Source: Daucus carota subsp. sativus (lineage: Eukaryota; Streptophyta; Magnoliopsida; Apiales; Apiaceae). Taken from it: a DNA stretch of 64,000 nucleotides. The translations under genes and the position numbers were made by a program. The DNA is taken from NCBI RefSeq assembly GCF_001625215.2, contig NC_030385.2, positions 489,135-553,134 of the forward strand, given 5' to 3'. Positions within the stretch are counted from its first letter, which is position 1, and each line of letters opens with the position of its first letter. The notes under the pieces were generated by a model, which ran no database searches, had not been told where the DNA came from, and saw nothing but the letters and a program-made list of their open reading frames with translations. This document shows, piece after piece, positions 9,815 through 60,050 of this stretch.

Positions 9815-11819
9815 ATGGAAGCTTCAGCTTGGGTTACATACGCAGCCACTTGGCTTTCCATTCTCGCATTCTTTCTTCTCGCCAAATATCTCCGCAGCAA
9901 GAGCACCCGCAAAATACTTAACCCCGCACCAGGGCCTAAACCCTGGCCGGTTATCGGGAATCTGAACCTCATCGGGGAACTTCCCCACCGTTCCATCCAC
10001 GACTTGTCTCAAAAATACGGTCCCATCATGCAACTTCAATTCGGTTCGTTCCCCGCGGTGGTGGCCTCGTCGTCCGAGATGGCGAAAATCTTCCTCAAGA
10101 CCATGGACGTCAAATTCGTCGGACGTCCTAAAACAGCCGCGGGAAAATACACAACTTATAATTACTCTGACATTACCTGGTCACCTTACGGTTCGTACTG
10201 GCGCCAAGCGAGAAAAATGTGCCTGATGGAATTATTCAGCGCGAAGCGGCTCGAGTCGTATGAGTACATTCGGGTGGAAGAAATGAAGGCCATGATCAAT
10301 AATATCTACAATTTGTCTGGAGAAGGTTTGGCTCTCAAAGACTATCTTTCGACCGTGAGTTTGAATGTGATCAGCCGAATGGTGGTGGGGAAGAGGTATA
10401 TCGACGAGACGGAGAATGCGGTGGTGAAGCCAGAGGAGTTCAAGAAGATGCTGGATGAGTTGTTTTTGCTTAATGGAGTGTTTAATATCGGGGATTCGAT
10501 TCCTTGGCTTGATTTCTTGGACTTGCAAGGCTATGTGAAGAGAATGAAGAGAGTGAGCAAGAAGTTTGATAAGTACTTGGAGCATGTGATTGATGAGCAT
10601 TATGAGAGGAGAAAGAATGATGAGAATTATGTTGCGAAAGACATGGTGGATGTGTTGCTTCAGATTGCTGATGATCCCACTCTTGAGGTTAAGCTTGAGA
10701 GGCATGGTGTCAAGGCTTTTACTCAGGTACTCATCTAATATTACTACACTTAATTGAATTTGTCAAACTTGCGTCTAGGAACATGTATTCTCTTTCTAAT
10801 TTTGGATTGCTGATAACATGATTTGAGGTCTCATTCCAAATTCTCAGTTTTATATTAGTATTTGAAAATCTAACTTTTTTAGTGTATTCAAACATGTTAT
10901 TTGATCAAATTCAGGATTTCAAATAAAATTCAAGTTTCATAAATTTATTTGAACTAGCGATATATTTCTCACGCAATTAGTATATCTTTATCACTACACA
11001 AAATTAGTAATTATTGTATGATTGAAATGAGGGGCAAACAGTATCGCATGTCATGATCCATGGGGTAGCTAGTGAATTATTGAAGGAAACAACATCATCA
11101 AATTAACATGGCACAAGCCAACTAGCTTATAGTGTCGTGATATCTTAAAGTATTGTACTGATCTTTCGTTTGTTCGATAATTCTGTTAGGACCTACTTGC
11201 TGGTGGAACCGAGAGTTCGGCAGTGACAGTCGAATGGGCCATTTCGCAACTTTTGAAAAAGCCTGAAATATTCGACAAGGCGACCGAAGAGCTAGATCGC
11301 GTCATCGGAAAAAACAGATGGGTAGACGAAAAGGACGTCCCGAATCTCCCCTACATTCAAGCCATCGTCAAAGAAACAATGAGACTGCACCCTGTCGCGC
11401 CAATGCTCGTTCCTCGTGAATCTCTAGAAGACTGCAAAGTAAACGGATACGACATCGCGAAAGGAACCAGGATTTTAGTGAGCGTATGGACAATCGGACG
11501 CGATCCAACATTGTGGGAAATGCCAGATGAATTTGTGCCCGAGAGGTTTATCGGAAAGGATATCGATGTTAAAGGACACGATTTTTCGCTGCTTCCGTAT
11601 GGTTCGGGGAGAAGAATGTGCCCGGGGTATGCTCTGGGACAGAAAGTAATTGAATCGAGTTTGGCCAATCTGTTGCATGGATTCAAGTGGAAATTGCCGG
11701 GAAAAATGACAGTTGAGGATTTGAACATGGAAGAAATTTTCGGGCTTTCGACTCCGAAGAAAATCCCGCTTGTCACGGTCGCTGAGCCTCGTCTAGCAAA
11801 AGAGCTCTACTCTCTTTAG
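9815..11819 (+). CDS. Cytochrome P450, CYP92-type, copy 1, complete
   Basis: This is a heme monooxygenase of the plant CYP71 clan, anchored in the ER by an N-terminal helix (about residues 8-24). Two exons, 9815-10726 and 11190-11819, with GT-AG ends and phase 0, give 513 residues, a normal length. Visible marks are the proline hinge APGPKPWPVIGN, the I-helix AGGTES at the start of exon 2, the K-helix KETMRLHP, PERF, and the heme loop [12 protein letters not shown] with Cys448 as the iron ligand. The loop has Tyr where most P450s, including its two neighbours, have Phe. Best family match from memory is CYP92, which includes homoterpene synthases and flavonoid 3'-hydroxylase-like enzymes. The substrate cannot be read from sequence. 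It is clearly more diverged from the other two complete copies than they are from each other. Confidence 0.93.
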
Positions 11820-14058
11820 TTCTTACCATCAGCTTAAGCTGTCCTCAAAGTATTATATTTCTTATACCTATTCTGTTTTCAAAGCCTTCCTCTGAGAATT
11901 TAATGAAGCTTTTATATTCTAAAACCCCGGTGTATGTTTTTTTTAATATCGTGTTCCTTTTATATACTTTTTTTAAGTAAAATTTAATCTTTGTTAAATT
12001 ATCAAAATATGCGATAAAATTCTCTTCAACCATGTTAGGGGAGAAGACGAACTAATAATGAAACTACTAATCTCAAAGAAAATCTAGCCAAACTATGTGA
12101 TAAACTTCCCCCGCTTTCTAATATAATCAAGTGAAATCTCACCATTATCACGAAAAAAGTTTCGTAGTGCTTTACAAGATCTTCGAACTCCAAGAAATTT
12201 TAGTCAAACTATGTGATACTCTTTTTCCCACTTTCTAATGTGATTAAGTGAAATTTCACCAGAAAAAAGTTCGGCAATGCTTTACAAGGTCTCCCAGCTC
12301 CAAGTTTGAATCAGTTTTGCTGGTCGCATTAACACTAAACAAATCACTCTCGAGTCTCGACTGTAATAACAGTTGTCGGTAGCTCCTCTGTTTATACAAG
12401 AGCTTTCAAAATCCCCACCATTTCTGTAAATATCATACAGTGTCTGTGGTGATTTCTGAGCACCATAAAATGAGTTTTCGCCCCATTAATTTTGAACAGA
12501 ATTAAAATTTAATATACTTAAAAATGCAAGTAAACAAAATGAATCAAATAAAATTTCATTGCAATGGTTTAGTAATTTCAATAAAAGGTAGCTATATTGT
12601 TTCTGATGGTTTTACTGGTCTATTTGAATAGTAGATTTGAATAGTACGTTAAATATACTAAAATTTGTATCATGATATATTGGAGTAAGTGTATTTTGAT
12701 GAGTGAATAAATTTGAAATAGTATCATGTCCAAACAAACCGTTTGACACAAAAGAAGGAAGAAAATAAAAAGATTCAGAACTGGACCATGTGATGAACAG
12801 GATCTAGAATAATTTGAGATGGTGTATTAATCTGTGAGTATCATTTCGCGCCCATGTGCATTTATGTTGATCATTGGGCTTGCGCAGCACCAATAATGGA
12901 ATGGGCCCAGTGGCCCAAAATATGGAACACAATGTGAAACACCAGGGTCCACGGCACTTGACAGTAAAAGTAAAAGTACTTCCCATGAAAATACAGGTCA
13001 TTTTTACTGTACAGTTAACATTATTATTTTTTTAAATTAAAATATTAATCATATATTTTTGTTAATAAAAGGTAAATCAAAAATGATGATTTAACAATAC
13101 GGTCAAAACATATAAAAATATGTGTGAAAAAGTCAAACGCTCTAGACAAAGTAATAATCCCCCTTCTTCGGACAACGGGCATGATTCATAATTTAATAGT
13201 TCTGCAAAGTAGAATTGAACTAATTATTTTGATTTTTAATTAAAAATTAATATTTCAATATTTATATAAAAATAAAATTTAAAAAATAATTTATAAAAAT
13301 ATATTTCATACACATCTTAAAATACATGTAATGTCAATAATAATTCGATTTTTAATTTTCGATTTAAATATTATACAATTCAATATTTACTAATTTATCA
13401 TAATATTATTTCATGCTTATTCCTAGAATTGTGTAAGAAATAATTTAACAACCAAGTAGAATTATGTCCACATCTCGTACAACTAAAAAATACCAGAAAG
13501 TTTAAATTATTAACCAATTCATTGAACAAGAACCTCAATATTGTTTATCTAAAACAATAAGATAAATAAAATATCAAAATTACCTGCTTTCAAGTAATTA
13601 ATAATATTCAAATAAATTTCAAAAAGTCTTAAGATTCACACTTACTCCAAAACTCTGATGGATTACTATATTAAATCACCCACGCTGATCTTGAAAGTCT
13701 TTATATATTGGTTTTGGCATTGCGCCTACTGCCTAATTGCGAGTAACAACCAAGTATTATAATTCGTTCCAATCAAATGTGAAAAAGTTAATTGTACACT
13801 TGTAATTTGAATACTCTGTTTCTACTTCTCCCAATATCCAACTACTGTCGGACGTAATACCTAACCTTAGTCTAGTCAGCCATGAAATCATGACACTGAT
13901 GCCGTCGAATTTTATATATTTTTAACAAGATTCGAACTCCCGAGAAAAATGACATCATAGCAAAACGTCACCAGTTACTTACCAATACCATTCTTGTTGA
14001 GAGGGTTTTTAACGATTAATTTCAAGTCCTCTGAGTTGAATTAGCTCTACTGAAATGT
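11820..14058. other. Spacer between P450 copies 1 and 2
   Basis: AT-rich DNA with no supported gene. Bases 12087-12195 and 12203-12305 are diverged tandem copies (period about 116 bp). Bases 11995-12100 resemble the 3' flank of P450 copy 2 (about 16183-16280). From about 13856 to the ATG at 14128 the sequence matches the upstream region of P450 copy 3 (55901-56410), apart from a MITE in the latter. Confidence 0.65.
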
Positions 14059-14066
14059 TATATAAA
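14059..14066 (+). promoter_or_regulatory. Probable TATA box of P450 copy 2
   Basis: TATATAAA lies 69 bp before the ATG at 14128. The same box sits at 56332-56339 before the twin gene, so the core promoter was duplicated along with the gene. Confidence 0.7.
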
Positions 14067-14127
14067 GAAGTGTTCGGTGGTATCTTATAATGCACTATCA
14101 CAATTCACAGCATTGCACACTTCCATA

Positions 14128-15792
14128 ATGGACTTAACAATTTGTGCAGCAGTGTTACTAGCAGCACTGTCTTTTTTTCTAGTCCCTGCCTATCTCCACC
14201 GACGCAAAATCAACTCGCCACCAGGACCCAAGCCCTGGCCTATCATCGGAAACCTTAACCTCATCGGTCCCCTACCCCACCGTACAATCCACCAGTTGTC
14301 GAAAAAATATGGTCCTATAATGCAGGTCCGGTTCGGTTCATTTCCAGTAGTTATTGCTTCTTCTGTGGAAATGGCCAAAATATTTCTTATAAATATGGAT
14401 GCCAATTTCAGTGGCCGCCCCAAGACGGCCTCGGGGAAATATACAACGTATAATTACTCCGATATCACGTGGTCGCCTTATGGCGCGTACTGGAGGCAAG
14501 CCAGAAAATGGTGTGTGACAGAGCTGTTCAGCAAGAAAAGGATCCAGTCTTATGAGTACATCAGGCAGGAAGAAACAAAGGCATTGTTGAAAGAACTTCA
14601 CGCGGCTTCGGGGACTAATGTTGTGATCAAAGATTATCTTGCTAAGGTTAGTTTGAACGTGATTAGTCGCATGGTGTTGGGGAAAAAGTATTCAGATGAC
14701 AATGAGGAAGAGGAGAGTGGGATTGTTAGTTCTAAGGAGTTTACGGATATGATTGAGGAATTGTTTTATTTAAATGGTGTGCTGAATATTGGAGATTCGA
14801 TTCCTTGGATTGATTTTTTGGATTTGCAAGGCTATGTGAAGAGGATGAAGATTCTGAGCTTCAAATTTGATAGGTTCTTGGAGCATGTTCTCGACGAGCA
14901 TAATGAGAGGAGGAAGAATGAAGGCCAAGATTTTGTGGCTAAGGATATGGTGGATGTTTTGCTTCAGCTGGCCGACGATCCAAATCTGGAGGTTAAGATC
15001 CAAAGGCATGGAGTTAAAGCCTTTACACAGGTATGTTGCGTTTAAAGAAAAGTATTAGATTTTAAAAGTTCTGCTTGATTGCTTTTAAGCTCATATTCAG
15101 TAAGTACTTTTGTTGGTCTGGTCTAATGAAGCAAGTTTTTTTTTTTTTTTTTTTTAAATTTTTATCAGGACCTCCTTGCTGGTGGAACTGAGAGCTCTGC
15201 AGTGACAGTGGAATGGGCGATTTCAGAACTTCTACGCAAGCCTGAAATACTGGAAAAGGCGACAGAAGAACTCAACCGAGTGATTGGAACAAGTAGATGG
15301 GTAGAAGAAGATGACATGAGAAATCTTCCCTATATTCAAGCCATTGTCAAAGAGACAATGAGATTGCACCCTGTTGCACCACTGCTAGCGCCACGAGAAG
15401 CTCGCCAAGACTGTAAAATAGGTGAATATGATATTGTGAAAGGTAGCCGGATCCTGGTAAGTGTATGGAGCATAGGAAGAGATCCTGCATTATGGGAAGA
15501 GCCAAATGAATTTGTTCCCGAAAGATTTATTGGTAAGAATATCGATGTCATAGGAACCGATTTCGAGCTACTTCCATTTGGAGCTGGAAGAAGAATGTGC
15601 CCTGGATATGCTTTAGGAATGAAGGTCATTGAATCAAGTTTGGCAAATCTGTTGCATGGATTCAGCTGGAAACTGCCCAAATCAATGCAAAAAGATGAAG
15701 TAAATATGGAGGAAATATTTGGGCTTTCAACTCCTAAGAAGATCCCACTGGTTACAGTTCCAGAGCCCAGACTTCCTCTCCAACTCTATTAG
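14128..15792 (+). CDS. Cytochrome P450, CYP92-type, copy 2, complete
   Basis: Exons 14128-15030 and 15169-15792, GT-AG, phase 0, 508 residues. The ATG at 14128 is preferred because the reading frame further upstream has only a GTG and the twin gene shares this ATG. The protein has an N-terminal membrane helix, the hinge PPGPKPWPIIGN, AGGTES in the I-helix, KETMRLHP, PERF and the heme loop [12 protein letters not shown] with Cys445. All parts needed for a working ER monooxygenase are present; the substrate is unknown. It differs from copy 3 at only four residues (9, 20, and one Ser/Thr and one Lys/Glu change in exon 2). The intron is short, 138 bp, with a long T tract before the acceptor. Confidence 0.94.
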
Positions 15793-16935
15793 GAATTTAT
15801 CAACCCAAGTACTTATCTTGCTACTGCTTTTCATGTTAAGTTTGTTGACTCAAACCTTTGCCATTAGTATTATTTTCTACAAGGGTTTTATCAGAGTTGG
15901 TTATTAGTATCTTTTTTAACTGTAATCGTATTATTTGTTCGAGTGTGCTTGTTTTTAAAAGTAGGTGGTCAAATGCCTGATATGCTTGGCCAAACTTATA
16001 TTATAAGAATATATTCATTTTCAGCAAAAATAGATATGAATATTTATGTAATGTTTGATATATATATTTTAAATAATTAGTTGTTGTTATAGAAAATAAA
16101 TATATTTTTATGAGTCACGGTCCACGGTTTCAAAACATTAGATGAATATTCAGCGGTCAGGATGAATACATTATGTCATCGAAATATCTGATAAAATTGT
16201 TTCCAACAAGAACAGTAGAGACGACGAACTAACAATGAAACTATTAAGCACACGAGCAATACTAGCCAAACTATTAAACAATGAAGGTGGGGTCAAGCCC
16301 CTTTTATAGGTACGTTTTTACTTGATTCTCTAAGTATAAAGAGATACGTAAGCATCTCGTGAGGATCGAATAGTCTCGAAACACGAGCGTAGTCATTAAA
16401 ACTTGAAGCCCTCAACCCTAATATTAAATATGCAATAACACACACACATATTAATGTTTTTGTTAATATTTAAATTTTGAGTTCTTATTTAAATGACAAA
16501 TGTAAGTTTTTACTTCATTTCTTGATATAAAATTATTATAAAGTAATTCTTTTGGGACAAAAAGTCACAAAATACTTTAAAAATGATACAATATATTTTA
16601 AATGGTGAGATTTATATTAACGTAAACATCATTCATTTTATATATGAAAATAAAATTCAATAAAAAATGTAACATCTCGTCTTTTGGGAATTTTTTGGGA
16701 AAAAATTCCGAGCCAAATTACCCTGCATAAATAGTACAGATAGAACATAACAAGTATAGATAGAACATGGTTCAATGAAGATTACACATCAATATGTCCG
16801 CGAAGCTACAACAATATAGCATTCCTCAACACATACACAATCTTTACTAAAAATGACAATCTCCTATTATTAGCACACTTCTCAATATAAATACCAAAGC
16901 TTTATTAAATTAATTACCTGAAAATATTGATCAGC
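15793..16935. other. 3' flank of P450 copy 2 and AT-rich spacer
   Basis: Up to about 16165 the sequence parallels the 3' flank of P450 copy 3, marking the right edge of the duplicated block. Beyond that it is AT-rich without a supported gene. Bases 16183-16280 resemble the 3' flank of P450 copy 1. Confidence 0.65.
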
Positions 16936-24560: not shown

Positions 24561-24887
24561 GTTTACAGTCTTAAACGGCTAATTAAGATTCTAACATGCA
24601 ACCCCCAACCAACAATTCATTTAATAACCCGCCCGTGCATAGATAGTGAGCCCATAAATAATAGCCCAATAATAAACCCAGCAATCAGCCCACCATAGTT
24701 GTATGTACTTCAGTTTTAAAAATATTATATTAATACACTGTAGATTGTAAAAAAACAACGGACAAAATGTTTTAAAAACAACTTAAACAAAACAAAAAAA
24801 TTATTGCTTTTTCATATACATTTAAATAAATCAATTTAAATTAAAAATTAATAAAAGCCTTAGCGGAGCGGGCAAAAATACTAGTAA
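24561..24887. other. Spacer right of the REM gene
   Basis: AT-rich sequence with no gene seen. It likely includes the promoter of the REM gene near 24500-24600. Confidence 0.5.
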
Positions 24888-25380
24888 AATTATAAATATA
24901 CAATTTTGAATATCTTTTTTAACAAGAACCTTTACATAACTCTTTTTTAACTTTAACGTGTTCTATTTCAGTATAAACACGAACCATTACATAACTCTTT
25001 ATAACTCTAATCTTAAAAGTTTTCGTTGTAAAAAAAATTAAAGTTACAAAATTACGTTGAAATACGATTGATTGGATTACTGAATCTTTCAAATCGTCTA
25101 TATTTGAAAAAAATTTGAATTTTCTGATTTTTTTTTTAGTATTAAATCTCCGTGTACTAAATTCGGATTAAATGTACTAAAATCATGATACACACACACA
25201 TATTAGGGTTTGCCCATTATCAAGTAATCGGGAGAAAATACAGTCAGTTGAATAATATAATTTAATTAAAATTTAATTCATTAATATTAAAATATTAATA
25301 AAATGATATTAAAATTTAAATTATAAATAATAAATTACGAAATATATACCTGCCCGTGCTTTGCACGGGTTAAAGGCTAG
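24888..25380 (+). mobile_element. Helitron-like 3' tail, copy A
   Basis: The right end has a perfect hairpin, CCCGTGC-TTT-GCACGGG (about 25353-25369), then seven bases and CTAG at 25377-25380, followed by T. This matches the Helitron rule of a short hairpin just before CTRR with insertion before T. About 490 bp to its left recur in inverted orientation at 42667-43163. The 5' TC end was not located, and no helicase is encoded here. Confidence 0.7.
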
Positions 25381-26487: not shown

Positions 26488-27198
26488 TGATAGGGTATAA
26501 CCCGAAGTCTTGCCTACCCGGGTTCATATATGGGCCCCGGCACCAGCAAGACCGTTGACCACACAAAGCAATCAAGGCAATCCTCGATCTTACCCGGGTA
26601 CACAACCACGACAGGACCTCTTACCCGGGTTCATCGAAACTCACAACTTACCCGGGCACACTTGTACCAGCCGACACTTGCTGCACAAGGCACAGACTGA
26701 CACGATAAAGACAAACATAACGGTCAACTACTGGCGATAGAGACAAGCCAGGGAACATTCCAAAATACTACTTCTACGCTGACACCTGGACACGTGTAGG
26801 GGATCCAACCCCTACACGTGTAGGACCAGGATCCAGGTACGCACCCTTAAACCCTAATCCTTGGCCTATAAATAGACCAAGGATCAAAAGTTTAAGGGTT
26901 AACTTAACTTCACTCTCCATACTCATTCTCTACACACACTTAAGCACTCAGCATATATTCAAACACTCTCAGCCACCAGCCACCAGCAACCACCACACAT
27001 ACACCTTCACCCACCACACATAGATAACACTTTCTCTTATCTTTACCCTTCCGAAACCTACGCTTACTCTCACGCCGGAGGCGCTTTGGGGCCAAACCCC
27101 CCCGCCGGCGTTGTTTTGTAGGCTCCCATCCAGCAGCTACACCACGAAACCACCAGTCACGGCGGAGGAAGGACCGGGATCGGAGATTGGCGTTATCA
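26488..27198 (+). repeat. 5' LTR of the Tat element
   Basis: 711 bp, beginning TGATAGGG and ending GTTATCA. It includes several ACCCGGGT palindromes and a TATA-like CTATAAATAG near 26869. It is matched by 38580-39290. Confidence 0.97.
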
Positions 27199-27200
27199 TG

Positions 27201-27218
27201 TGGCGCTAGAAGGAGGGG
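27201..27218 (+). promoter_or_regulatory. Primer-binding site of the Tat element
   Basis: TGGCGCTAGAAGGAGGGG begins two bases after the LTR, the position and TGG start expected of a tRNA primer site. It is not the initiator-Met type. I did not identify the tRNA. Confidence 0.6.
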
Positions 27219-27590
27219 GGTGTCCTCTGTCCTGTGGTCACGGTGCCACTGGACTCATCTTCTTCAACAAACCCCCGAAACGGGGGTCCAAATCACACCA
27301 GTAAGCTTTCGTAAAACACCCAGCTTCTCAAAACCTTCAACCATGGCTTTTCTTGATGTGTGCATGATAGCAAACCCTGCCTAAGCAAAACCCTAATCTT
27401 GTCTGTAGCACATAAAATCTTTTTGTCTCACACCTGGTCACATTTTGTCACTTAACTACTTATAGCATTTCTGAAAATAGTAAGTTGACTACCTGTACAC
27501 ACTATTTCTGTCACCCTGTCACTATCTATACTATTTGTGGGCACTACCACCAAAACAGCAACCATACACCCTGTGTAAGTTCTTGTGACC

Positions 27591-30500
27591 ATGACAAAAA
27601 GGACACGCTCCCACCTGGGTCTTCCCCAGAACCCGGATAACCCTCAGACAGACCAGGATAACCCGAACCAGGATCATGCCTCAGGACCCCTTTTCACCCA
27701 TGTGAACCCGGAGGAGAACCAAACCATCAACCCCAATGATGCCCGGGTCACGATCGAAGCAAACCAGTACAAGTACACCGATGTCCCGGTCACCACCCTC
27801 CACCTATCCCAACTCACCAATGTAGAGCTGGCCGAAGCCATCCGGCAGTACCATGATCGCCGGGAAAGCAACCGTAGACTTGAGGACATCGGTGAATCCG
27901 AGGACTCCGGGAACAGCCGTCAATCCCGGGGTTCCGTCTTCGACCGGATCGGAGACAAAGCCAAGAAAAAGAAACAGAAAGATAATGAGGAAACCCGGCT
28001 AAGAATCTTAGCTGAAAGAAAAGAACAGATCCGAAAAGAGGAAGAGGAAAAACTTGAACAAAAAATTGCCATCCGGATGCAGCTCGAAGAAGAGAAATTG
28101 ATAAAGGGATCCCGGTCCAAGCGATACCGGAAGGAAGCAACACCCGAACTCATCTCTGATGACGAGGATGAGAGACCGGGGCAAACCAACCTCAGAGACA
28201 TGATCAATGAGCTCAATCGGAAAATCGGAAATGATTCCGGGCTTGAAATTGGGGGAACCCTGACTCCCTTCAGCCACTCCTTGGAATCCATACCCCGACA
28301 AAAGGGTATGAAGCACTACAACTTTGAGTCTTTCAATGGACTGGGAGACCCGGAAGAACATCTACACTATTTTGAACAGATAGCCCTGATCTACTACTAC
28401 AATGACCTGACCAAATGCCGCTTCTTCGCATCCACATTCAAGGGAGGGGCCCAAAGATGGTTCAGCCGGATCCCCTCCCGGAGCATCGGGTCCTGGAAAG
28501 ACTTCAGGGAAGCCTTCCTCAGAAGGTTCCGAGCAAACAGGACACATGAACTCCATATGTGTCACCTGGAAACGGTTCGCCAGTATGACAATGAGGCACT
28601 CTCAGATTACATGAAACGTTTCCAGGAAGCAATCAACAAAATCTCCAACCTGGACGAGCGTGAGGCTCTGAGCATATTCTGAAGGAACTTGGACCCAGAA
28701 CAAAATGAGAGATATGTGGTCGAGTTGATCAACAAGGAGCCACAGAGCCTGGCAGCTGCCTATGCCATGGCCGCAAAATTCATCAAGGAAACCGATGTGC
28801 TCCAAGCAATGAGGATGACCCGGCAGGGCAGTTCAAAAGGAAAACAAATCGAAGATAGACCCAGGAAAGAATATCACCAGGATAAGAAATTCAAACCAGA
28901 CAGACAAACAAACTTCATCCAGCAAACAGGTTCTAAGAGAACCAGCCAACAGGGATCCGGGTCCAGGAGTGACCCCGGTCCAAACAGAGCAACCAGGGAA
29001 CCAAAACCAGAGCCCGAATGGACCCCTCTAAACAGATCCCGAGAGGATATACTCAAAGAAATCAGAGACAAACCCTTCTACTACCCACCAAAACCTATGC
29101 AGACTCCTCCAGAGAGCAGACCTGCTAACCGACATTGTGACTATCATGGCACCCACGGTCACAAAACGGAAAACTGCATATCCCTCAAATATTTCATTGA
29201 AGAACAAATCAGCAAAGGCAACATGGGACAATACATAGCCCGGAACACAGCAAACAAGGGAGAGGGATCGGGGAAACAAAAGAACATTGTCAACGTGGTA
29301 CTGGGCGGATCCTGTTCCCCTCCTCCCAGCCCGGACTCCCGTCAAGAAGTGATGTCCATCCAAGCCTTCCCCGAACAAGTGATTTCCTTCAGCAACAAGG
29401 ACTTCGAAGGAGTCACCCGGGGTCACAATCAAGCCTTGGTAGTGACCCTTGACATGGCCGAAAATGAAGTAAGGAGGATCCTGGTGGACAACGGCTCCTC
29501 GGCCAACATCTTGTTCAAACACACCATGGATCGAATGGAGCTCGGGAGTATCCGGATGAACGATTACAGGGAGGATCCTCTATATGGGTTCGGGAATAGC
29601 ATTGTCCCGGTCCTTGGCACACTCTATCTCCCGGTCCGATTCGGAACTCTTCCGAACCAAGTCACTCATACCATCAAATTCTATGTGACGGATACACCCT
29701 CCCCTTACAATGTGATCATCGGCCGCCCAGGTCTGAACAAGATCGAAGCTATTACTTCCATCCCACACCTAAAGTTCAAGTTCCCAACCCCGTTCGGGGT
29801 AGGGGAAGTCAGAGGAGATTCGGCAGCAGCCGGGATGTGTTACAGCCAAGCATTGATCATGGCAGAAACGCACCTGGACAATAAGAGAAAGGCTACCGTT
29901 TTCCAAAAACAGAGAAGTAACAAGAAACATCGGCCTTACCCGAGAACAAACCCTAAGGGTGAAGTCCAGGTCATCGACCTAGACCCGGGCAGTCAGAACC
30001 CGGGAGCAACCAACCCTGGTCCTGGACAAGGCAACCAGAAAGCAACCATGAGCCCAGCTCAAAATTTTGTTGAAAAGAACACCGATGCCCGGGTCCAACA
30101 AATGATCTCGGCACAAGAATTGACTAAGGTCGAAGCTGCGGTCGAAACCGAGTCTGTCCTGATCGAGAAAGACAACCCGGCAAGGAAAGTCAAAATTGGA
30201 AAAGGCCTGAATACCGTTTTTAAAGAGGAACTCATCCAACTACTCCGGAGCTATGCAGATGTCTTTGCCTGGAGCCCGGATGACATGCCCGGGTTGGATG
30301 AATCATTGGCAATGCACAGCCTCGACGTCGATCCCAAAAAGAAGCCTGTTAAACAAAAACGAAGAAATTTCGCACCAGAAAGGCAGAAAGCAATAGATGA
30401 GGAAGTTGGCAAATTGATGAAGGCGGATATCATCTGCGAGATCAAATACCCGGAGTGGCTAGCTAACGTAGTCATGGTAAAGAAAGCAAACGGAAAGTGG

Positions 30501-33377
30501 AGGATGTGTGTTGACTACACAGATCTGAATGCGGCATGCCCGAAGGACCCTTATCCTTTACCAAGCATAGACCAGCTTATTGATGCCACATCAGGACACC
30601 TGATGTTAAGCTTTATGGATGCCTTCTCCGGGTACAACCAGGTTAAGATGAACCCAGCAGACATAGCCAAAACAGCCTTCATAACCCACAGAGCAGTATA
30701 TGCCTACAAACTGATGCCTTTCGGGTTAAGGAACGCCGGGTCTACATACCAGAAGGCAATGAATGAAATTTTCAAAGACCAACTCGGAAGAAATTTGGAA
30801 TGCTACGTCGACGACATCATCTCCAAATCTACATCAGTCCCGGGTCACATTTCAGACCTCAGAGAATGTTTTGAGAACATGAGAAGAACTAAGCTAAAGC
30901 TCAATCCAGACAAGTGCACATTCGGGGTAGAGGCTGGAAAGTTTTTGGGTTTCATGGTAAGCAACCGGGGTATCGAGGCTAACCCGGAGAAGATCAAAGC
31001 TGTACAAGAGATGCAACCACCTCGGACTCAGAGAGAAGTCCAAAAGCTAGCAGGGTCCTTAGCAGCACTTCGAAGGTTTGTCTCCAAACTCGCTGAAAGA
31101 TGTCTACCGTTCTTTGAGTTGTTAAAAGGGGCGAAAAATCAGAAGTTGGTAGAATGGAGCCCGGATTGCCAAAGAGCTCTTGACGAAATAAAAGCATACT
31201 TGTCCAAACCCCCGATCCTGACAAAAGCCCTACCCGGAGAACCTCTCTATCTATACCTGTCAGCCGGACCTTTGGCCGTTGGGGCAGCCCTGATCAGGGA
31301 AGAAGCCGGGCAGCAGAAGCCTGTCTACTATGTCAGCCAGGTCCTCAAAGATGCAGAGACCAGATACCCCAACTTAGAAAAATTTGCTTTCGCGCTGATC
31401 ACCGCCTCCAGGAAACTCAGACACTACTTTCAGGGAAGAGAGATCAGGATCGTCACAGACCAACCTCTAAGGAAAATCATTCACAAGCCTGACATCTCCG
31501 GGAGACTAGTGAATTGGGCAATCGAACTTAGCCAGTTCAGCCTAACATTCCTACCCCGAACAGCAGTCAAAGCCCAGGTCCTAGCAGACTTCGTAGTGGA
31601 ATGCAACTTTCCAGAGAACCAGACAACCCCCATGGAAACTGACCCGGAAGCCCCGGGAAAACTCAACCCGGAGGCTTGGATACTTCATGTCGACGGTTCC
31701 TCAACAACCGAAAGATCAGGAGCCGGGATAATCCTGAAAAGCCCGGATGGGTTCGTAATCAAGACAACAATCTCTTTCAACTTCACAGCAACCAACAACC
31801 AAGCGGAGTACGAAGCCCTGTTGGCGGGGTTAAAGTTGGTCCGGACACTGTCAATCCGGAACCTTATCATCTACAGCGACTCACAAATCGTGGTCAGGCA
31901 GACAAATGGGGAATACCTCGCCAAAGACCCGATCCTAACCAAGTATCAAGCCTTGGTGAAAAGCTACCTTACCCTGATCCCCGGGTGCAAGATCTTGCAA
32001 GTAAACAGGGAAGAAAATGCTGAAGCAGACAACCTCTCCAGGTTGGTCCAGAATTCAGCAGACCTGGATAGCTCAGTCTATTTCGAGGAATTGCACAAGC
32101 CAACAATAGATCATGAAGAAATCTTTGAAATCAACAACGACCCTACCTGGATGACTCCCCTGATCAACTACATAGAGAAGGGAGAGTTACCCGAAGACAA
32201 GGGGAAAGCACAACGGCTGAAGGCTAAGGCGGCCAAATTTTTTGTCGAAGGAGGAACACTCTTCCGCCGGACCTACTCATCCCCAATCCTGAAATGCATA
32301 GGTCCGGAGGAGGCCGAATATTGCCTAAGAGAAGTTCATGAAGGGATCTGTGGAGATCACATGTCGGCAAAAGGCCTGGCATATAAAATCATCCGGCAAG
32401 GCTACTACTGGCCAACAATTCATCAAGACTCCGTCGAGTTCGTGAAAAAATGCAAGAACTGCCAACTATTCAGCAACGTACCCCGGGTAAGCCCTGTCCT
32501 ACCCTCATCAGTCCTATCTCCAATACCTTTTGCTGTTTGGGGGATAGACATCATGGGACCCTTTCCCCGGGCCAAAGGAGACCTTAGGTACTTGCTAGTC
32601 TCCATCGACTATATGACCAAGTGGGTCGAAGCTAAAGCAATGCGGACAATCAATCAGCAAGATGTCATCCGGTTCATGGACAACATCTTGATGAGATTCG
32701 GGCTACCAAGAGTCCTGATATCAGATAATGGACCCCAGTTCATAGGGTCAGACTTTGAAAGCTACCTGGCTGAAAGAGGCATCAAGCACAAGAAGTCTTC
32801 AGTCGCCTATCCTCAAGGAAATGGCCAGGTAGAGGTCACCAACCGGATCCTCCTGAGAGGAATTGAAAAAAGGCTAGAAGAAAGCAAGAACAAATGGCCG
32901 GAAGAACTACCCCATGTTCTCTGGTCATACCGAACCAGTCCCCGGACAAGCACCGGCGAAACCCCGTTCAAGTTAGCCTATGGAACCGAAGCAATGCTTC
33001 CAATAGAAGTCGGGTCACCCTCCTATAGAGCAATCAACTTTGATGAAATCGCCAATGAAGAAGGACTCCGGGTCAACTTGGACTTGGTAGATGAAATTCG
33101 AGATCAGGCAATCGCAAAAATGGAAAAATACAAGGAAAAGACCCGGGATCACTTCAGCAAAAAATCCCGGGTCAGAAATTTCCAAGCAGGAGACCTGGTC
33201 CTACGAGACACCGAAGCCTCTGATCCAACCAACACTGGCAAGCTGATGCCTAAGTGGGAAGGCCCCTACAAAGTCAAAGAAGTCCTAAGGCCGGGCACCT
33301 ACAAATTGGAGCATATGGACGGGTCAGAAGTATCTAACACCTGGCACGGACTCAGATTAAGAAAATTCTACCAGTAG
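27591..33377 (+). other. gag-pol region of the Tat element (fossil)
   Basis: Gag covers about 27.6-29.3 kb and ends in a zinc-finger-like CDYHGTHGHKTENC. Protease (VDNGSSANILF) lies near 29.45 kb. Reverse transcriptase covers about 30.25-31.0 kb with YVDD at 30.8 kb. RNase H follows to about 31.6 kb. A second, archaeal-type RNase H (HVDGSSTTERSGAG) spans about 31.68-32.05 kb. Integrase has its HHCC zone near 32.35 kb and catalytic DNGPQF near 32.72 kb. No chromodomain is seen after integrase. The region looks nearly whole, with about one interruption. Confidence 0.93.
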
Positions 33378-33529
33378 AATGAGGAAGAAGGACAAGGATC
33401 CTAGAAGACAGCTACATATCCCTAAAAGCAATCATGTATTTTGATCGTTCTAAAGCTGTGTAATAGTTTTAATATCAATGAAGTCTTTTGCTGCCGATGA
33501 ATCTATGTTATTATTTACTTAGAAAATTT

Positions 33530-34510
33530 CTAAGGCAACCAAGCAATATCAACAACCAACCCGGGAAGGATCTACCCGGGTCCATCCATGCAATCATTCA
33601 ACTTGGAAAAATTTCTAAGTATAAAAAGCAAATGAAAGCATACAACCCGGGCATGGCATACCCGGGTCCATCCATACCATCACTAACTTGGAAAAATTTC
33701 TAAGTATAAAAAGCAAATGAAAGCATACAACCCGGGCATGGCATACCCGGGTCCATCCATACCATCACTAACTTGGAAAAATTTCTAAGTATAAAAAGCA
33801 AATGAAAGCATACAACCCGGGCATGGCATACCCGGGTCCATCCATACCATCACTAACTTGAAAAAATTTCTAAGTATAAAAAGCAAATGAAAGCATACAA
33901 CCCGGGCATGGCATGCCTGGGTCCACCCATACCATCACTCGGAAAAAATTTCTAAGCATAAAAGCTAAATAAAGCAATCAACCCGGGAAAGATCTACCCG
34001 GGTCCATCCATCCCATCTACTTAGAAAATTTCTAAGGCAACCAAAAACTCATTTAAGCAATCAACCCGGGTAGATGTTGCCCGGGTCCATCTATTTTTAT
34101 CTACTTAGAAAATTTTCTAAGTGCAAACGTATTTAAGCAATCAACCCGGGTAGATGTTGCCCGGGTCCATCTATTTTTATCTACTTAGAAAAATTTCTAG
34201 GTGCAAACATATTTAAGCAATCAACCCGGGTAGATGTTGCCCGGGTCCATCTATTTTTATCTACTTAGAAAAATTTCTAAGTGCAAACATGTACAAAGCA
34301 ATCAACCCGGACAAACATTAAAATCTCTAAGTACAAGACCATTTCAAGCAATCAACCCGGGTACACTCTACCCCGGGTACAACTACATTGTTTTTGCTTA
34401 GAAAAATTTTCTAAGTACAAAGTATCCTAAAAGCGATCCACCCGGGGTAAAACTGACCCGGGCACACCTGCGTTATAATTACTTAGAAAATTTTCTAAGT
34501 ACAGAAATAT
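33530..34510. repeat. Tandem array of palindrome-bearing units in the Tat element
   Basis: About ten units of roughly 75-110 bp follow gag-pol. Each pairs a CCCGGG-centred palindrome couple (CCCGGGCATGGCATACCCGGG type) with a second palindrome of the type CTTAGAAAAATTTCTAAG. The first subset (about 33640-33960) has near-identical units of about 85 bp; the later subset (34060-34300) has units of about 80 bp with a different CCCGGG spacer. Confidence 0.88.
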
Positions 34511-34718
34511 TGCAAACAGCCAATCTGGAATACACAAAGCATACAAAAGCATTCACAAACAAATATGACAAGAAAATATTTGATAAAAGGCAGCAAAGCA
34601 GGCTTCCACAATCCCGGGTCCACACGGACCTCGGATAAATATTCAAATCCAGCAAAAACTCATCCAGAAATACAAAAGATCATTTCAAACAACATGTTCA
34701 AGATTAAAGAAAAAGTGG

Positions 34719-37248
34719 CTAAGTAGCAGGGTGAAGGTTGTTTGTCTGAAGAGCCACATCGACGGGACCAACCGGATTGGCTGGAGCGATGAAGCTCGGA
34801 GAAGGACCCTCGAAGGGTTCGGGTTCACCCTTACCGGCCGAAACATCATCCTTGGCCTGGATATAAAGGTTGATGAAACTGGTCAGATCTGCCACCGGAT
34901 CCGTTTTGATGTGCCTCTCGGCAACATTCCAGCATCGGACAACCTCCGCAGCTGCAGCATTGGCCAGGGCACCCTTATACTCTTCAGATTCCTTAAAATC
35001 AGCAATCACAACTTCTGGTTCCTTTCGGTCCTCGAGTTGTTTCCTCAGCTTCTCCACATCCCCCTCGAGTTCGGCCACCCTCTTCTCAGAATCACCCGCC
35101 CGGGTCTCAGCATCCTCCAGTTTCCGCTTCCACTCAGCCTCCAGCCGGGATTCGGTTTCCTTCACCCGCTTCTCCAACTCGGACTCCAACTTCTCCTTAG
35201 CCGACCTCTCCAGGGCCAAGTCCGACTCAGCTTTCCGGGCTCTCGCCCCCAAAGTCTCAGCAGTGTTCCTTTCCGACTTTATCAAATTAAAAGCAATGGT
35301 ATTGAACCCGGCTAGACGAGACCCCAGCTGCAAACACCGGATTCGCAGGATCAGAAACATACAGAAGAAAGAGCATACAAAAGACAACACAAAAGTGAAA
35401 ACATACTCACCTGACCCCAAAGACTCCCCAGTTCCTTGAAAGTGCTCACCATCCCGGAATCATCCATTCTAACCCAGTCTTCCTCGGTCGGAATCTCCGA
35501 CATTATCTTGATTATTTCCCGGGCAGAGTACTTCCCGGCCCCAAGGGAAACCCGGGCACCTTCCCCGTCATCATCTTCATCATCAGAATCCGAGTCAGAA
35601 TCCAGCAGAACCCCTTTCCCCCGGCCAACTTTGGGAACTTTAGCGGGGGCCTTCTGCGCCGAGTCCTGCTTCCTCTTCCTCCCCCGGGTCACCAACTCTT
35701 GGCTACCAGGCTCCGCAACCTCTTCAGTCTCTCCCAAGGCAATTTTCTCCATTGCAGCGCTGGACTCACCACCGGTTGCCTCTTGCCTAGAAGACCCGGA
35801 TTCATCATTCTTCCCAGATCCGGTCTTGGGCTTAGGAGTAGGCTTGGGGATCGAATGAATTCCCCCCAGGTTCCTTAGAGCAGCAGCAAAGTGTTCATTA
35901 GCCATACTCTTCCACAGGTTTTTATCAAAATACGGCAAACCTGCAGGCAGACAATGACCGGGTTAGAAGGCGTAGCAGATAAGGTAACACATACACATAA
36001 GAAACAGACGACCCGAGCCACTTAACACTTCCAAAAAGCGAAAAAGGGGCAAATAGAATACAAGTACACAAAGCATATGAAGACGACCCGGGTATAAGAT
36101 TACCCGGGCTACTTAACAATTCTAGGAAACAAACAAGAGGAAAGAAAAACACAAGTATGGAGAGATTTTTAATCCGGATTATACTTACATCCCCATTCAT
36201 GCAGTTTGTCAAATTGCATGAAGGTATCCCGGGTCAACTGCTGCCCAAGACACTCACAAAACTCCCTAAGCTGATCCCGGAACTTCCCGGATGCGCCCGG
36301 AGCATCAAAATTTGTCTTGACTAACTTATCATCCGTGACAAGATAAGGCATGTAGTGGATATCCAAGCCTTTCAACATCAACACTTCACGATTCCAGTTC
36401 TTCAAAGAAGACTGGTGCATCACTGGTTTAAGAAAATCGGGCCCAAAACCGCATTCTTTGGACCGGAAGCGGAGCTCGTACAGTGGTTTCTCCCCGGACT
36501 TCTTGAACTGGAAGAGAATGTGGAAAAGCTTGAATGTAGGTTGATACCCCATCTTGTTACAAGCGCACAAGAACCAGGTCATCAACTTAATCGCGTTCGG
36601 AGTGATCTGCATCGGAGAACATTTATACTCGTACTTGCATAGGTGCCTGAAAAACAAGTGCCACCTCGGGTTCCACCCGGACCTCAAATGCTCCATCCAC
36701 ACCGGGATGAATCCGTCCGCGGGACGATGGAAAATCTTCTCCCCGGACTCAGGGAACCTCCACTCAACCGCATCCGGGAGCTGGAAGGCAACCCGGATCA
36801 ACCGATCCTGAACCTCCCACGGCAACTCCCTAAAAGAACTCTTCACGGCATAAGGAGGCCGGGAAACAGCATACTCCTTAAACCGCTCGTCGAACTCCTC
36901 CTTTTTATAAGGGCCTAAAGGACCATCCGGATGCTTAAACTTATAAAAAGAAGCTATGCCCCGGTAAAATTCCCTCTCATCGGCCAGTGGCGCTTTGGCG
37001 ACGAAATAAGACTTTGTATCCATCCACATACCCTCCGGGGTCATAATCACTTGCTTCCCCTCGGCCTTAGCCACCTTTTGAAGCTCCGACACAACCCCGG
37101 ATACAGCTATCTCCCTCTCGGCCATCTTCTCACGAGCCCGGTCTGCGAGGGACTGTCGCTCGTCGGTCTCACTATCACTAGAATACTGCCCCGGAACACC
37201 AGAAAAAGCTACAATATCTCGCCTGGCCCTCTGTTTGATCCGGACCAT
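34719..37248 (-). other. Antisense gene block of the Tat element (fossil)
   Basis: Three open blocks lie on the strand opposite gag-pol: 37248 to about 36185, about 35940-35415 and about 35333-34719. Their edges carry GTAAGT or GTGAGT donors and CAG acceptors, so a spliced antisense transcript is likely. Such antisense frames are known in Tat-lineage elements. The first block resembles the plant domain annotated as putative gypsy-type transposon protein. The second is acidic and Lys-rich (DSDSDSDDEDDDGEG). The third is a long coiled coil rich in Glu, Lys and Arg. Function is not established. Confidence 0.75.
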
Positions 37249-38561
37249 AGACCTAGAGGAAAAGGAGAATCCGGGTCAATTCAGCATTCAACCAATTTTA
37301 TTTCAAGTTTTACGAAGGTCCGGATCCCGCCCTAAATCTATGTGAGGAACAACAAATTAAAAAGCTACCAGGATACGACTAAGGTTACCCGGGTCCCTCT
37401 CTCTCCCTTCAAGATGAAGGAGGGAAGAAGTTACCCGGGTCCCGAAGTCGCGCAAGGAAGAGGCTACCCGGGTCACAAAGACCTACAATACGCCACAAAA
37501 GGGATAACCCGAGTACTCCCCCCATCCACATAAAAACCGTCACGCCCCCTACTCAACCCAAGTGGCACCTTCAACCCGGGTAAGAAATCCCTACCCGGGC
37601 TCAGTCAAAGCCCCAAGAATTCTAACAGCCACAAACAATTTCTAAATCATTTCAAACCGCAATCACAAATCAAACGACAAACCCTAACCGCTATACGCAT
37701 ATACATACATATATCTCACCAAGAACAATCAATCAAAAGCCCAGAAACTTGAAACCAACACACCCACCCAAAATGCTCAAAATCAACCAAAATCGAACCA
37801 TTCCCCAAAACCTACAAACGGAACACACCGCAAGAACATACACAATTCGTACACAACATACAAAATCATATACGAAACAATCAACAAATCAAAAGCAGGC
37901 ATTTCGAAAGAGAAGCTCATACAGACCGTAATGGTGAGATATGAAAGAAGCGAACAAAAAAAAAATGATGAAAGGGGACTTACCGTGATAACCAACGACG
38001 GAGCAAAAACTGCGATGACAACGACAACGATCTCCGAGACTCCAGTGAAACCTTCCGAGAAAACAAAGAGCAACAGTGAAAGAATGAAGAAGAGAAAACA
38101 AAGGCAAAAGTAAAAAGTGAAAACTGAGAGGGAGGGTGGTACTTATAGTCACATCGCGGTCCAGGTGGCAATTTGTTATTGGCCCCTCAACAATTATTAC
38201 AGCTGTAATAATAACTCCCTCAAAAGGCGCGCCACTCCAATTTTCAAAAAACAAAACGGCTGCAGACCCCTCGAATTCCGAGGGACAACAATCGGTTCGA
38301 CTCCCCTCAAACCCGAGTACAACACCCACCCGGGTCTACCTGGACAGGGGGGCAAAAGCAAAACCCCTACCCGGATCTACCCGGACAGGGGGGCAAGAGC
38401 AAAAACTCCACCCGGGTCTACCCGGACATGAAGGGCAAAGCAAACCCTCTGCCCGGATTCACCCGAGTACAGAAACACGAGCAAACCCCCTTACCCGGAT
38501 ACCCGAACAGAAAAGCAAAAGCGGCGACTCCACTCTACTCCCTCACATAGGAAACCTATAT
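37249..38561. other. Noncoding 3' region of the Tat element
   Basis: Between the antisense block and the polypurine tract there is no supported frame. ACCCGGGT-like palindromes recur (37389-37610 and 38325-38500). The part just right of 37248 should contain the promoter for antisense transcription. Confidence 0.6.
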
Positions 38562-38579
38562 AAGGGAGTGGGGGGCAAA
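38562..38579 (+). promoter_or_regulatory. Polypurine tract of the Tat element
   Basis: The purine-rich run AAGGGAGTGGGGGGCAAA directly precedes the 3' LTR, where plus-strand synthesis is primed in LTR elements. Confidence 0.85.
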
Positions 38580-39290
38580 TGATAGGGTATAACCCGAAGT
38601 CTTGCCTACCCGGGTTCATATATGGGCCCCGGCACCAGCAAGACCGTTGACCACACAAAGCAATCAAGGCAATCCTCGATCTTACCCGGGTACACAACCA
38701 CGACAGGACCTCTTACCCGGGTTCATCGAAACTCACAACTTACCCGGGCACACTTGTACCGGCCGACACTTGCTGCACAAGGCACAGACTGACACGATAA
38801 AGACAAACATAACGGTCAACTACTGGCGATAGAGACAAGCCAGGGAACATTCCAAAATACTACTTCTACGCTGACACCTGGACACGTGTAGGGGATCCAA
38901 CCCCTACACGTGTAGGACCAGGATCCAGGTACGCACCCTTAAACCCTAATCCTTGGCCTATAAATAGACCAAGGATCAAAAGTTTAAGGGTTAACTTAAC
39001 TTCACTCTCCATACTCATTCTCTACACACACTTAAGCACTCAGCATATATTCAAACACTCTCAGCCACCAGCCACCAGCAACCACCACACATACACCTTC
39101 ACCCACCACACATAGATAACACTTTCTCTTATCTTTACCCTTCCGAAACCTACGCTTACTCTCACGCCGGAGGCGCTTTGGGGCCAAACCCCCCCGCCGG
39201 CGTTGTTTTGTAGGCTCCCATCCAGCAGCTACACCACGAAACCACCAGTCACGGCGGAGGAAGGACCGGGATCGGAGATTGGCGTTATCA
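38580..39290 (+). repeat. 3' LTR of the Tat element
   Basis: 711 bp, matching 26488-27198 with one difference that I found (A at the 5' copy, G here, within the CTTGTACC(A/G)GCCGAC stretch). Confidence 0.97.
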
Positions 39291-53890: not shown

Positions 53891-54168
53891 TGTTGGATTG
53901 TTCCTTAGTTGTTATCTGGGTATTAACTAATAATAAATAAAGTAGTTGTAGCCATCTGGTAGTTATAGTTGGTTTCTAGGAAGTTACAGACAGTTACAAC
54001 TGCCTTGTACATAGATTAGCAGTTACTATATGTGATGTATATAAACTCAGTTTACCAATCTAATAATATTAAGTCTTTTCCCATAAAAACATCCTATTCA
54101 GTTCTGTATTCTTATCCTTAGTTTCTTAATATTTAATCAAAAACTCCAACAGATTGGTATTAGAGCCC
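53891..54168 (+). mobile_element. Copia-type LTR relic with primer-binding site
   Basis: A 261-bp LTR (53891-54151) begins TGTTGGATT and ends CTCCAACA, giving matched TGTTGGA/TCCAACA ends. Three bases on, TGGTATTAGAGCCC (54155-54168) is close to the initiator-tRNA-Met primer site TGGTATCAGAGC. No internal coding region or second LTR follows, so this is a fossil remnant only. It abuts a Helitron helicase fragment. Confidence 0.7.
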
Positions 54169-56410: not shown

Positions 56411-58075
56411 ATGGACTTAACAATTTGTGCAGCACTCTTACTAGCAGCACTGTCTTTTTTTCTAGTCCTTGCCTATCTCCACCGCCGCAAAATCAACTCG
56501 CCACCAGGCCCCAAGCCCTGGCCTATCATCGGAAACCTTAACCTCATCGGTCCCCTACCTCACCGCACAATTCACCAATTGTCGAAAAAATATGGTCCTA
56601 TAATGCAGGTCCGGTTCGGTTCATTTCCAGTAGTTATTGCTTCTTCCGTGGAAATGGCCAAAATATTTCTCATAAATATGGATGCCAATTTCAGTGGCCG
56701 TCCCAAGACGGCCTCGGGGAAATATACAACGTATAATTACTCCGATATCACGTGGTCGCCTTATGGCGCGTACTGGAGGCAAGCCAGAAAATGGTGTGTG
56801 ACAGAGCTTTTCAGCAAGAAAAGGATCCAGTCTTATGAGTACATCAGGCAGGAAGAAACAAAGGCATTGTTGAAAGAACTTCACGCGGCTTCGGGGACTA
56901 ATGTTGTGATCAAAGATTATCTTGCGAAGGTTAGTTTGAACGTGATTAGTCGCATGGTGTTGGGGAAAAAGTATTCAGATGACAATGAGGAAGAGGAGAG
57001 TGGGATTGTTAGTTCTAAGGAGTTTACGGATATGATTGAGGAATTGTTTTATTTAAATGGTGTGCTGAATATTGGAGATTCGATTCCTTGGATTGATTTT
57101 TTGGATTTGCAAGGCTATGTGAAGAGGATGAAGATTCTGAGCTTCAAATTTGATAGGTTCTTGGAGCATGTTCTCGACGAGCATAATGAGAGGAGGAAGA
57201 ATGAAGGCCAAGATTTTGTGGCTAAGGATATGGTGGATGTTTTGCTTCAGCTGGCCGACGATCCAAATCTGGAGGTTAAGATCCAAAGGCATGGAGTTAA
57301 AGCCTTTACACAGGTATGTTGCGTTTAAAGAAAAGTATTAGATTTTAAAAGTTCTGCTTGATTGCTTTTAAGCTCATATTCAGTAAGTACTTTTGTTGGT
57401 CTGGTCTAATGAAGCAAGTTTTTTTTTTTTTTTTTTTTTAATTTTTATCAGGACCTCCTTGCTGGTGGAACTGAGAGCTCTGCAGTGACAGTGGAATGGG
57501 CGATTTCAGAACTTCTACGCAAGCCTGAAATACTGGAAAAGGCGACAGAAGAACTCAACCGAGTGATTGGAACAAGTAGATGGGTAGAAGAAGATGACAT
57601 GAGAAATCTTCCCTATATTCAAGCCATTGTCAAAGAGACAATGAGATTGCACCCTGTTGCACCACTGCTAGCACCACGTGAGGCTCGCCAAGACTGTAAA
57701 ATAGGCGAATATGATATTGTGAAAGGTACCCGGATTCTGGTAAGTGTATGGAGCATAGGGAGAGATCCTGCATTGTGGGAAGAGCCGAATGAATTTGTTC
57801 CCGAAAGATTTATTGGCAAGAATATCGATGTCATAGGAACGGATTTCGAGCTACTTCCATTTGGAGCTGGAAGAAGAATGTGCCCTGGATATGCTTTAGG
57901 AATGAAAGTCATTGAATCAAGTTTGGCAAATCTGTTGCATGGATTCAGTTGGAAACTGCCGAAATCAATGCAAGAAGATGAAGTGAATATGGAGGAAATA
58001 TTTGGGCTTTCAACTCCTAAGAAGATCCCACTGGTTACAGTTCCAGAGCCCAGACTTCCTCTCCAACTCTATTAG
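56411..58075 (+). CDS. Cytochrome P450, CYP92-type, copy 3, complete
   Basis: Exons 56411-57313 and 57452-58075 encode 508 residues with the same hinge, AGGTES, KETMRLHP, PERF and [12 protein letters not shown] motifs as copy 2. Only four residues differ between the two, none in a known catalytic motif, so both probably have the same activity. The ATG is the first of the conserved MDLTIC start. Nucleotide differences are uneven: about 14 in the first 520 bp, none but a T-tract length change over the next 745 bp including the intron, then about 17 in the last 400 bp. The upstream region holds a MITE not present at copy 2, so expression could differ. Confidence 0.94.
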
Positions 58076-58650: not shown

Positions 58651-59143
58651 GTATTAAAGCCATTGTCTTAAAGGCACTGTCAAGGAGACCATGAGATTGC
58701 ACCATGTTGCACTAATGCAAGCGCCACGAGAAGCTCGTGAACACCGTATAATAGGTAAATACGATTTGTTCAAGGTACCCGGATTCTGGTAAGTATATGG
58801 ACCATCACAATTCACAAGAGATCCTGCATTATATATGGGAAGAGCCAAATAAATTTGTTCCCGAAAGTTTAATCAGTGAGAATATTGGTGTCATATATAT
58901 GAACTAATTTCAGCTACTTCCATGTAGAGCTGTGAAAAGAATGTGTCTAGATATGCTTTAGGATCAAAGGTCATGAATCAGAGTTTGGAAAATCTATTGC
59001 ATGGATTCAGTTGGAACTTGGAAATTGCCCAACTCATTGCAAAAAGATGATTTGAATATAGAGGAGATATTTGGGCTTCCAACTCCTAAAAAGAGCTTCT
59101 GGTTTTAGTTCCAGAGCCCAGACTTCACCTAGAGCTCTATTAG
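58650..59143 (+). pseudogene. CYP92-type pseudogene, exon 2 only
   Basis: The fragment runs from the K-helix region (ATGAGATTGCACC, as in KETMRLHP) through a worn heme loop (GTGAAAAGAATGTGTCTAG) to a stop matching the family end (near 59143). Several frameshifts break the frame, the PERF motif is damaged, and exon 1 is absent. It lies 575 bp downstream of intact copy 3 in the same orientation. Confidence 0.85.
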
Positions 59144-59164
59144 AATGTAGATGATTTTAATATA

Positions 59165-60050
59165 GATGCGTTTTGGATCATATCCGGTTTGTTACAGTAT
59201 CTTCGGCAGAAATGGCAAAAACATTTCTTACAGACATGGATGCAAATTCCAGTGGCCGCCCTAAGACTGCCTCGCCGAAGTACTTAGCATACCATTACTC
59301 CGATATGACATGGTCACAGTGCGGGCCTTGTTGGAGACTGGCTCGGATGTGGTTTGCAACAGAGGTTTTCAGCAGAAAAAGGATGCGGTAGTATGAGTAC
59401 ATCAGGCCAGAAGAAACAAGTATTATGATACAAGAACTTCATGCGCTTTAGGGCCTAACGTTGTGATGAAGGATTATCTTGTTGACTTGAGCTTGAAAGG
59501 CATAGTGTTAAATCATTGATCCTGGTATATTTTAAACATTTAATCCATGAAAACTTTTTATAAATAAATAGAAGTATCCATTTAACAAATTATTTCAGGA
59601 CCTCCTTGCTGGTGGAACTGAGAGCTCAGCAGTGAATGTGGAATGGGCGCATTAAGAACTTTTATGCAAGCCTGAAATATTCAAGAAGGCAACAGAAGAA
59701 CTCAACAGAATCATCCGAAGAAATAGATGGGTAAGTGAAGATGACATGCAAAATCTCCCTATATTCAAGCCATTGTCAAAGAGACTTTCAGATTGCACCC
59801 TGGTTCGCCCCTGCTGGCAACACGAAAAGCTCGTCAAGACTGTAAAATATAGGTCAATTCTGATTTTGAACTACTTCCATTTGGAGCTGGAAGAAGAATG
59901 TGCCCTGGATATGCTTTAGGATCAAAGGTCATCGAATCAAATTTGGCCAATCTATTGCACGGATCTAACTGGAAACTGCCCAATTCAATGCTAAAAGATG
60001 ATCTGACTATGCTGTTTTAGAGGCCAGGCTTCATCCGGAGCTTTATTAAT
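59165..60050 (+). pseudogene. CYP92-type pseudogene, partial exon 1 plus exon 2
   Basis: Exon 1 material begins mid-gene (VSSAEMAKTFLTDMDANSSG) and runs to about 59510 with a stop after the RKRMR segment. A good acceptor then leads into GACCTCCTTGCTGGTGGAAC at 59599. Exon 2 keeps the I-helix AGGTES and the heme loop [13 protein letters not shown] in pieces, but about 150 bp between the K-helix region and the heme loop (including PERF) is missing. It ends near 60050. It has been dead longer than the 2-4% divergence between copies 2 and 3. Confidence 0.87.

Follow-up and report, generated by a model that had tools for sequence, protein, structure and literature searches.

Probable recent ectopic gene conversion between two cytochrome P450 duplicates 42 kb apart in carrot

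Two cytochrome P450 genes of carrot, found in the 64,000-nt stretch of DNA analysed here (the window), differ in their promoters and towards both ends but are almost identical in the middle, over 746 bp that include the whole intron. I propose that this mosaic is best explained if one of two old duplicates was recently overwritten in part by ectopic gene conversion from the other, a reading to which, judging from the sequence, I would give a probability of about 0.9. Recent conversion rather than constraint was also the original prediction, and silent sites, the intron and the divergence of older paralogs all agree with it.

The two genes, copy 2 (14128-15792) and copy 3 (56411-58075), lie on the same strand at a constant offset of 42,283 bp across the whole gene, in keeping with the 42 kb first reported. 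In the gene models each has two exons, a 138 bp intron and an open frame of 508 codons, and the proteins differ at 4 of 508 residues (V9L, P20L, S394T and K476E), all outside the tract. A Pfam scan of the exons of copy 2 matched PF00067 above the curated cut-off in both; the best solved relative is ferruginol synthase (5ylw), and the genes are presumably of the CYP92 type. Their paralogs have introns of other lengths, 463 bp in copy 1 and 1139 bp in a paralog on chromosome 2. Among the papers listed on CYP92 in Daucus carota, or on conversion among the P450 genes of carrot, none is seen to treat this locus, and PMC5059761 contains no passage on "gene conversion".

Table 1. Coordinates of the P450 copies, the tracts and neighbouring features, in positions of the window.
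Feature	Position	Strand	Basis or remark
Copy 1, related P450, open frame, 513 aa; outgroup	9815..11819 (exons 9815-10726 and 11190-11819)	+	
Copy 2 exon 1, 301 codons	14128..15030	+	gene model; Pfam PF00067, E 2.7e-34
Copy 2 intron, 138 bp, within the tract	15031..15168	+	GT..AG; 137/138 identical to copy 3 intron
Copy 2 exon 2, including stop	15169..15792	+	gene model; PF00067, E 2.9e-56 (15202-15792)
Copy 3 exon 1	56411..57313	+	gene model
Copy 3 intron	57314..57451	+	gene model, GT..AG
Copy 3 exon 2, including stop	57452..58075	+	gene model
Detected homology of the duplication units	copy 2, 13858..16187; copy 3, about 55896-58472		alignment
Core tract of copy 2, 746 bp, a single substitution (15156)	14644..15389		alignment
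Core tract, copy 3	56927..57672		alignment
Maximum-likelihood tract, copy 2, 971 bp, 3 differences	14419..15389		likelihood fit
Candidate second tract, short (158 bp, no difference), from late exon 2 into the 3' UTR	15703..15860		
Young LTR retrotransposon between the copies, 12,803 bp	26488..39290	+	TGCAA target duplication on both sides; LTR pair
P450 fragment (exon 2 remnant) directly behind copy 3	58668..59143	+	79.8% to copy 2
Second P450 fragment, parts of exons 1 and 2, much of the middle missing	59158..60010	+	73-89% to copy 2

The duplicated unit is little larger than the gene itself, the detected homology running from about 13858 to 16187. At 55968-56229 the promoter of copy 3 carries about 240 bp more than that of copy 2, insertion-like and set between two homologous blocks. 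The last part of the copy 3 homology (58402-58468) includes some 35-60 bp that recur as numerous short matches elsewhere in the genome (82-97%); they resemble the edge of a dispersed repeat and stand exactly at the end of the duplicated block. About 350 bp ahead of the copy 3 homology is an open frame on the minus strand for a PIF1-like helicase (54126-55550). Such helicases are a frequent mark of Helitrons, and a Helitron origin of copy 3 was considered on account of this frame.

Divergence along the pair was read from an alignment of 13500-16600 against 55780-58900. The promoter (13951-14127) differs at 23 of 167 sites and the first part of exon 1 (14128-14418) at 12 of 291 (4.1%). Divergence then drops to 2 of 225 sites in 14419-14643, directly before the core, and to a single site in the core itself. 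It resumes at 15390/57673, where a G/A difference closes the core on its 3' side, with 16 of 313 sites differing in 15390-15702 (5.1%), followed by none of 158 in 15703-15860 and 17 of 270 in 15861-16130. Counted over the gene, there are 14 differences in 14128-14643, 1 in 14644-15389 and 16 in 15390-15792. The earlier counts by eye, about 14 in the first 520 bp of coding sequence and about 17 in the last 400 bp, were therefore right for the first (14 in 516 bp) and nearly exact for the last. The near-identical middle was real as well, but its limits, given as 14646-15390 and 56929-57672, have to be moved to 14644-15389 and 56927-57672. What had been taken there for a change in the length of a T-run is an A/T substitution (15156/57439) that borders the poly-T and is the sole difference in the core; both cores measure 746 bp, so that lengths of 745 and 744 bp were wrong. 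The claim that the intron is more alike than the flanking exons holds against the exon sequence further out, with its 4.1% and 5.1% of differing sites; the adjoining 225 bp have 2 differences.

Chance accumulation of differences is very unlikely to produce such a profile. When the 31 differences were redistributed at random among the 1665 sites of the gene, and the 77 among the 2210 sites of the homologous block, no 746 bp segment with fewer than two differences arose in 200,000 permutations of either. A difference-free run of 512 bp was matched in 70 of 200,000 permutations in the gene and in none of 200,000 in the block. An even scatter of differences, which the original prediction had named as speaking against it, is thus replaced by clustering, and an interior stretch is significantly closer between the copies than both of its flanks, as expected of an ectopic conversion tract.

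How far the tract extends on its 5' side is less sharply drawn. From the start codon to 16130, the best-fitting segment of low divergence is 14419-15389, with 3 differences in 971 sites against 45 in 1032 elsewhere. Its log-likelihood is -205.3, compared with -208.2 for the core alone (14644-15389) and -226.5 with no segment. The two differences in 14419-14643 are both synonymous and, judged by the nearest relative, derived in copy 2. This ragged edge, two differences in 225 bp, makes a single clean event less than certain. The 158 bp run at 15703-15860 weakly suggests a second tract; a run as long arose in 1014 of 100,000 permutations of 15390-16130 and in 2148 of 100,000 of the pooled flanks.

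Permutation treats all sites alike, whereas tests on silent sites do not. In the core no synonymous difference is found in 126 sites, where 18 are expected. Synonymous divergence is 0.156 in 14128-14418 and 0.225 in 15390-15702 (14% and 20% of sites), but 0.043 (2 of 47 sites) in 14419-14643, and none of 21 sites differs in 15703-15792. Setting the core (0/126) against 14128-14418 and 15390-15792 together (23/159), and omitting 14419-14643 with its 2/47, gives a Fisher p of 7.7e-7. The intron, with 1 difference in 138 sites, is likewise closer than the noncoding flanks upstream and downstream taken together (40/437, p 2e-4), and closer than the downstream flank alone (17/270, p 0.009). Identity in excess at both silent and intron sites is what marks a tract of ectopic conversion.

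The alternative that comes nearest to surviving is an assembly artefact, in which reads from one copy were used to patch or polish the middle of the other. In its favour, PMC10581907 describes the apparent source assembly as built from PacBio and Nanopore reads with polishing. The same paper describes DH1, which would be the source plant, as a doubled haploid, and in that case a mixing of alleles is an unlikely origin of the mosaic. Moreover, the window contains no N, flanks that differ by 4-5% should let reads be assigned to a single copy, and the two tracts can be told apart by the substitution at 15156. The comparable tracts of two further P450 clusters (below) also argue against a local fault, though one assembly may err repeatedly. 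Taken together these points leave an artefact distinctly unlikely. A separate search with RuBisCO, bearing on whether two small contigs are of organelle nature, placed none of its 15 matches on C10 or C11.

The identical mosaic would also follow from a double crossover or from a pair of unequal crossovers, and the P450 fragments behind copy 3 attest that the locus has been rearranged. Two crossovers within 1 kb are, however, far less likely than one conversion, and I regard this route as very unlikely. The non-reciprocal nature of the exchange is nonetheless an inference, since a double crossover would leave the same mark.

One might also turn the argument around and suppose that copies 2 and 3 are a young pair whose ends diverged through imports from other paralogs. 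Mosaic genes can form in this way, and the fragments close behind copy 3 could have served as donors. But imports would have to account for the promoter (23/167), both exon ends and the 3' UTR (17/270), all of which are diverged. Each site was polarised by its nearest aligning relative among the fragments behind copy 3, copy 1 and the chromosome-2 paralog. Of 30 coding differences, copy 2 holds the derived state at 12 and copy 3 at 14, an even split, with 4 ambiguous. In genome searches with the 5' and 3' ends of both copies, the partner copy ranked highest (96% and 94%); the runners-up among the best candidates that were scored reached 72-79%, or 85-89% over 140-150 bp. No closer donor thus appears among the best matches of this one genome, although a donor may have been lost. 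The even polarisation and the reciprocal best matches of the ends point to old duplicates with a recently overwritten middle, and they leave imported ends unsupported and extremely improbable.

Finally, purifying selection or a low mutation rate in the middle of the gene has next to no probability: although older paralogs are somewhat less diverged in the core than in other parts, 51-60% of their fourfold sites in the core differ, and the intron of copies 2 and 3 is as identical as the exons even though the introns of copy 1 and the chromosome-2 paralog differ in length. The fourfold counts in the core are 30 of 59 between copies 1 and 2 (64-76% in four other parts), 26 of 43 between the chromosome-2 paralog and copy 2 (66-76% in other parts), and 25 of 49 between copy 1 and the chromosome-2 copy (61-79%). 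Together with the silent sites, this divergence rules out selection or a mutational cold spot as the cause of the core identity, which is thus peculiar to copies 2 and 3.

Gene conversion would account for the pair as follows. Copies 2 and 3 would be old duplicates in a small P450 cluster, with a synonymous divergence beside the tract of about 0.16. A recent break in the middle of one copy would have been repaired with the other as template, whether on the same chromosome, the sister or the homologue. Some 0.75-0.97 kb, from late exon 1 through the intron and into exon 2, would then have been overwritten and its silent and intron differences erased. Plant substitution rates lie at 6.5-7e-9 or 1.5e-8 per site and year. 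With these rates, a dS of 0.16 would put the duplication at roughly 5-12 Myr. The absence of substitutions from about 234 silent sites, poly-T excluded, would put the conversion at no more than 0.4-1.0 Myr (95% upper limit: 0.9-1.0 Myr at 6.5-7e-9, 0.4 Myr at 1.5e-8); with the poly-T substitution included the limit becomes 0.7-1.6 Myr.

The distance between the copies may have been shorter when conversion acted. Between them lies a retrotransposon (26488-39290) with gag and pol domains and open frames, whose 711 bp LTRs differ at 1 site (710/711 identical); at a rate of 6.5e-9 it would be about 0.1 Myr old. Because the 12.8-kb insertion is so young, the copies may have been about 29.5 kb apart at the time of conversion, and the spacing of today can exceed the distance that conversion had to bridge. 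The element contains a tandem array of 80-85 bp units (33573-34310), and it is flanked at some distance by two 500-bp repeats in inverted orientation, 98% identical to each other (24885-25385 and 42662-43161). At the start of the window is a direct pair of 380 bp repeats, 99.5% identical (1-380 and 612-991), followed by lipoxygenase-like sequence (PF00305) at 5926-6702.

Conversion of this kind has been surveyed in rice (PMC2277409), where cytochrome P450 is among the families named. Rice conversions span 4-1237 nt and average 130 nt. The carrot tract falls within that span and, as in rice, joins similar P450 paralogs on the same chromosome and strand; it is longer than the rice average, and long also against the averages given for yeast, 200-300 or about 500 bp. 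Conversion on the same chromosome is infrequent in rice beyond about 35 kb, and the same authors cite 40 kb for Arabidopsis, so that the carrot spacing of 42 kb exceeds the range of the frequent events. Yet 229 of the 377 rice events took place between chromosomes, and distance is therefore no bar to conversion. A further likeness is to the HMA4 copies of Arabidopsis halleri (PMC3749932), in which coding sequences are homogenised and promoters diverged (compare 23/167 in the carrot promoter). There, many individuals reveal recurrent conversion and a selective sweep; the carrot case comes from one genome.

Other carrot P450 genes offer a closer comparison. From genome matches, 23 P450 loci were picked by hand and two pieces of the window added; after alignments shorter than 700 bp or below 80% identity were dropped, 36 remained, 35 besides that of copies 2 and 3, several of them covering different parts of the same gene pair. 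Two of the 35 stand out. On C4 (34.49/34.50 Mb) two copies share 417 identical bp, with none of 91 synonymous sites differing there and 40 of 247 outside (nominal p 1.9e-6), and on C6 (39.51/39.53 Mb) two others share 221 bp, with none of 51 differing there and 27 of 131 outside (nominal p 1e-4). Like copies 2 and 3, these pairs have an interior identical stretch devoid of synonymous differences between copies otherwise diverged; unlike theirs, the stretches are shorter and lie in a single exon, where there is no evidence from an intron. The longest difference-free run was equalled in none of 2000 permutations for 3 of the 35 alignments: L054/L055, L056/L057 and L052/L053. The last pair (C4, 34.524 and 34.555 Mb, about 31.6 kb apart) has 9 differences in 3602 aligned sites, with 2977 sites from one end free of any, and is more likely a very young duplication than a conversion, or else a stretch duplicated in the assembly. 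Elsewhere in the survey, L061/L062 has a 108 bp run with one difference allowed (0 of 2000 permutations), the figures for L065/L066 are 2 and 0 of 2000, and those for a pair of L070 alignments 4-11 of 2000. For L063/L041 the figure is 4 of 2000, yet its synonymous test is not significant (nominal p 0.06).

One may go further and suppose that repeated conversion is selectively maintained, keeping the middle of the P450 identical over more than 40 kb as the promoters diverge. This is unlikely; if true, one enzyme would be run from two differently regulated genes, and the reach of more than 40 kb would exceed the usual range of same-chromosome conversion in plants. With comparable tracts in two further P450 clusters and in the rice survey, the locus is instead a new instance of a known, ordinary process. 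In practice, such a tract misleads phylogenies and age estimates of duplicated P450 genes: a duplication dated from the middle would come out many times younger than one dated from the ends.
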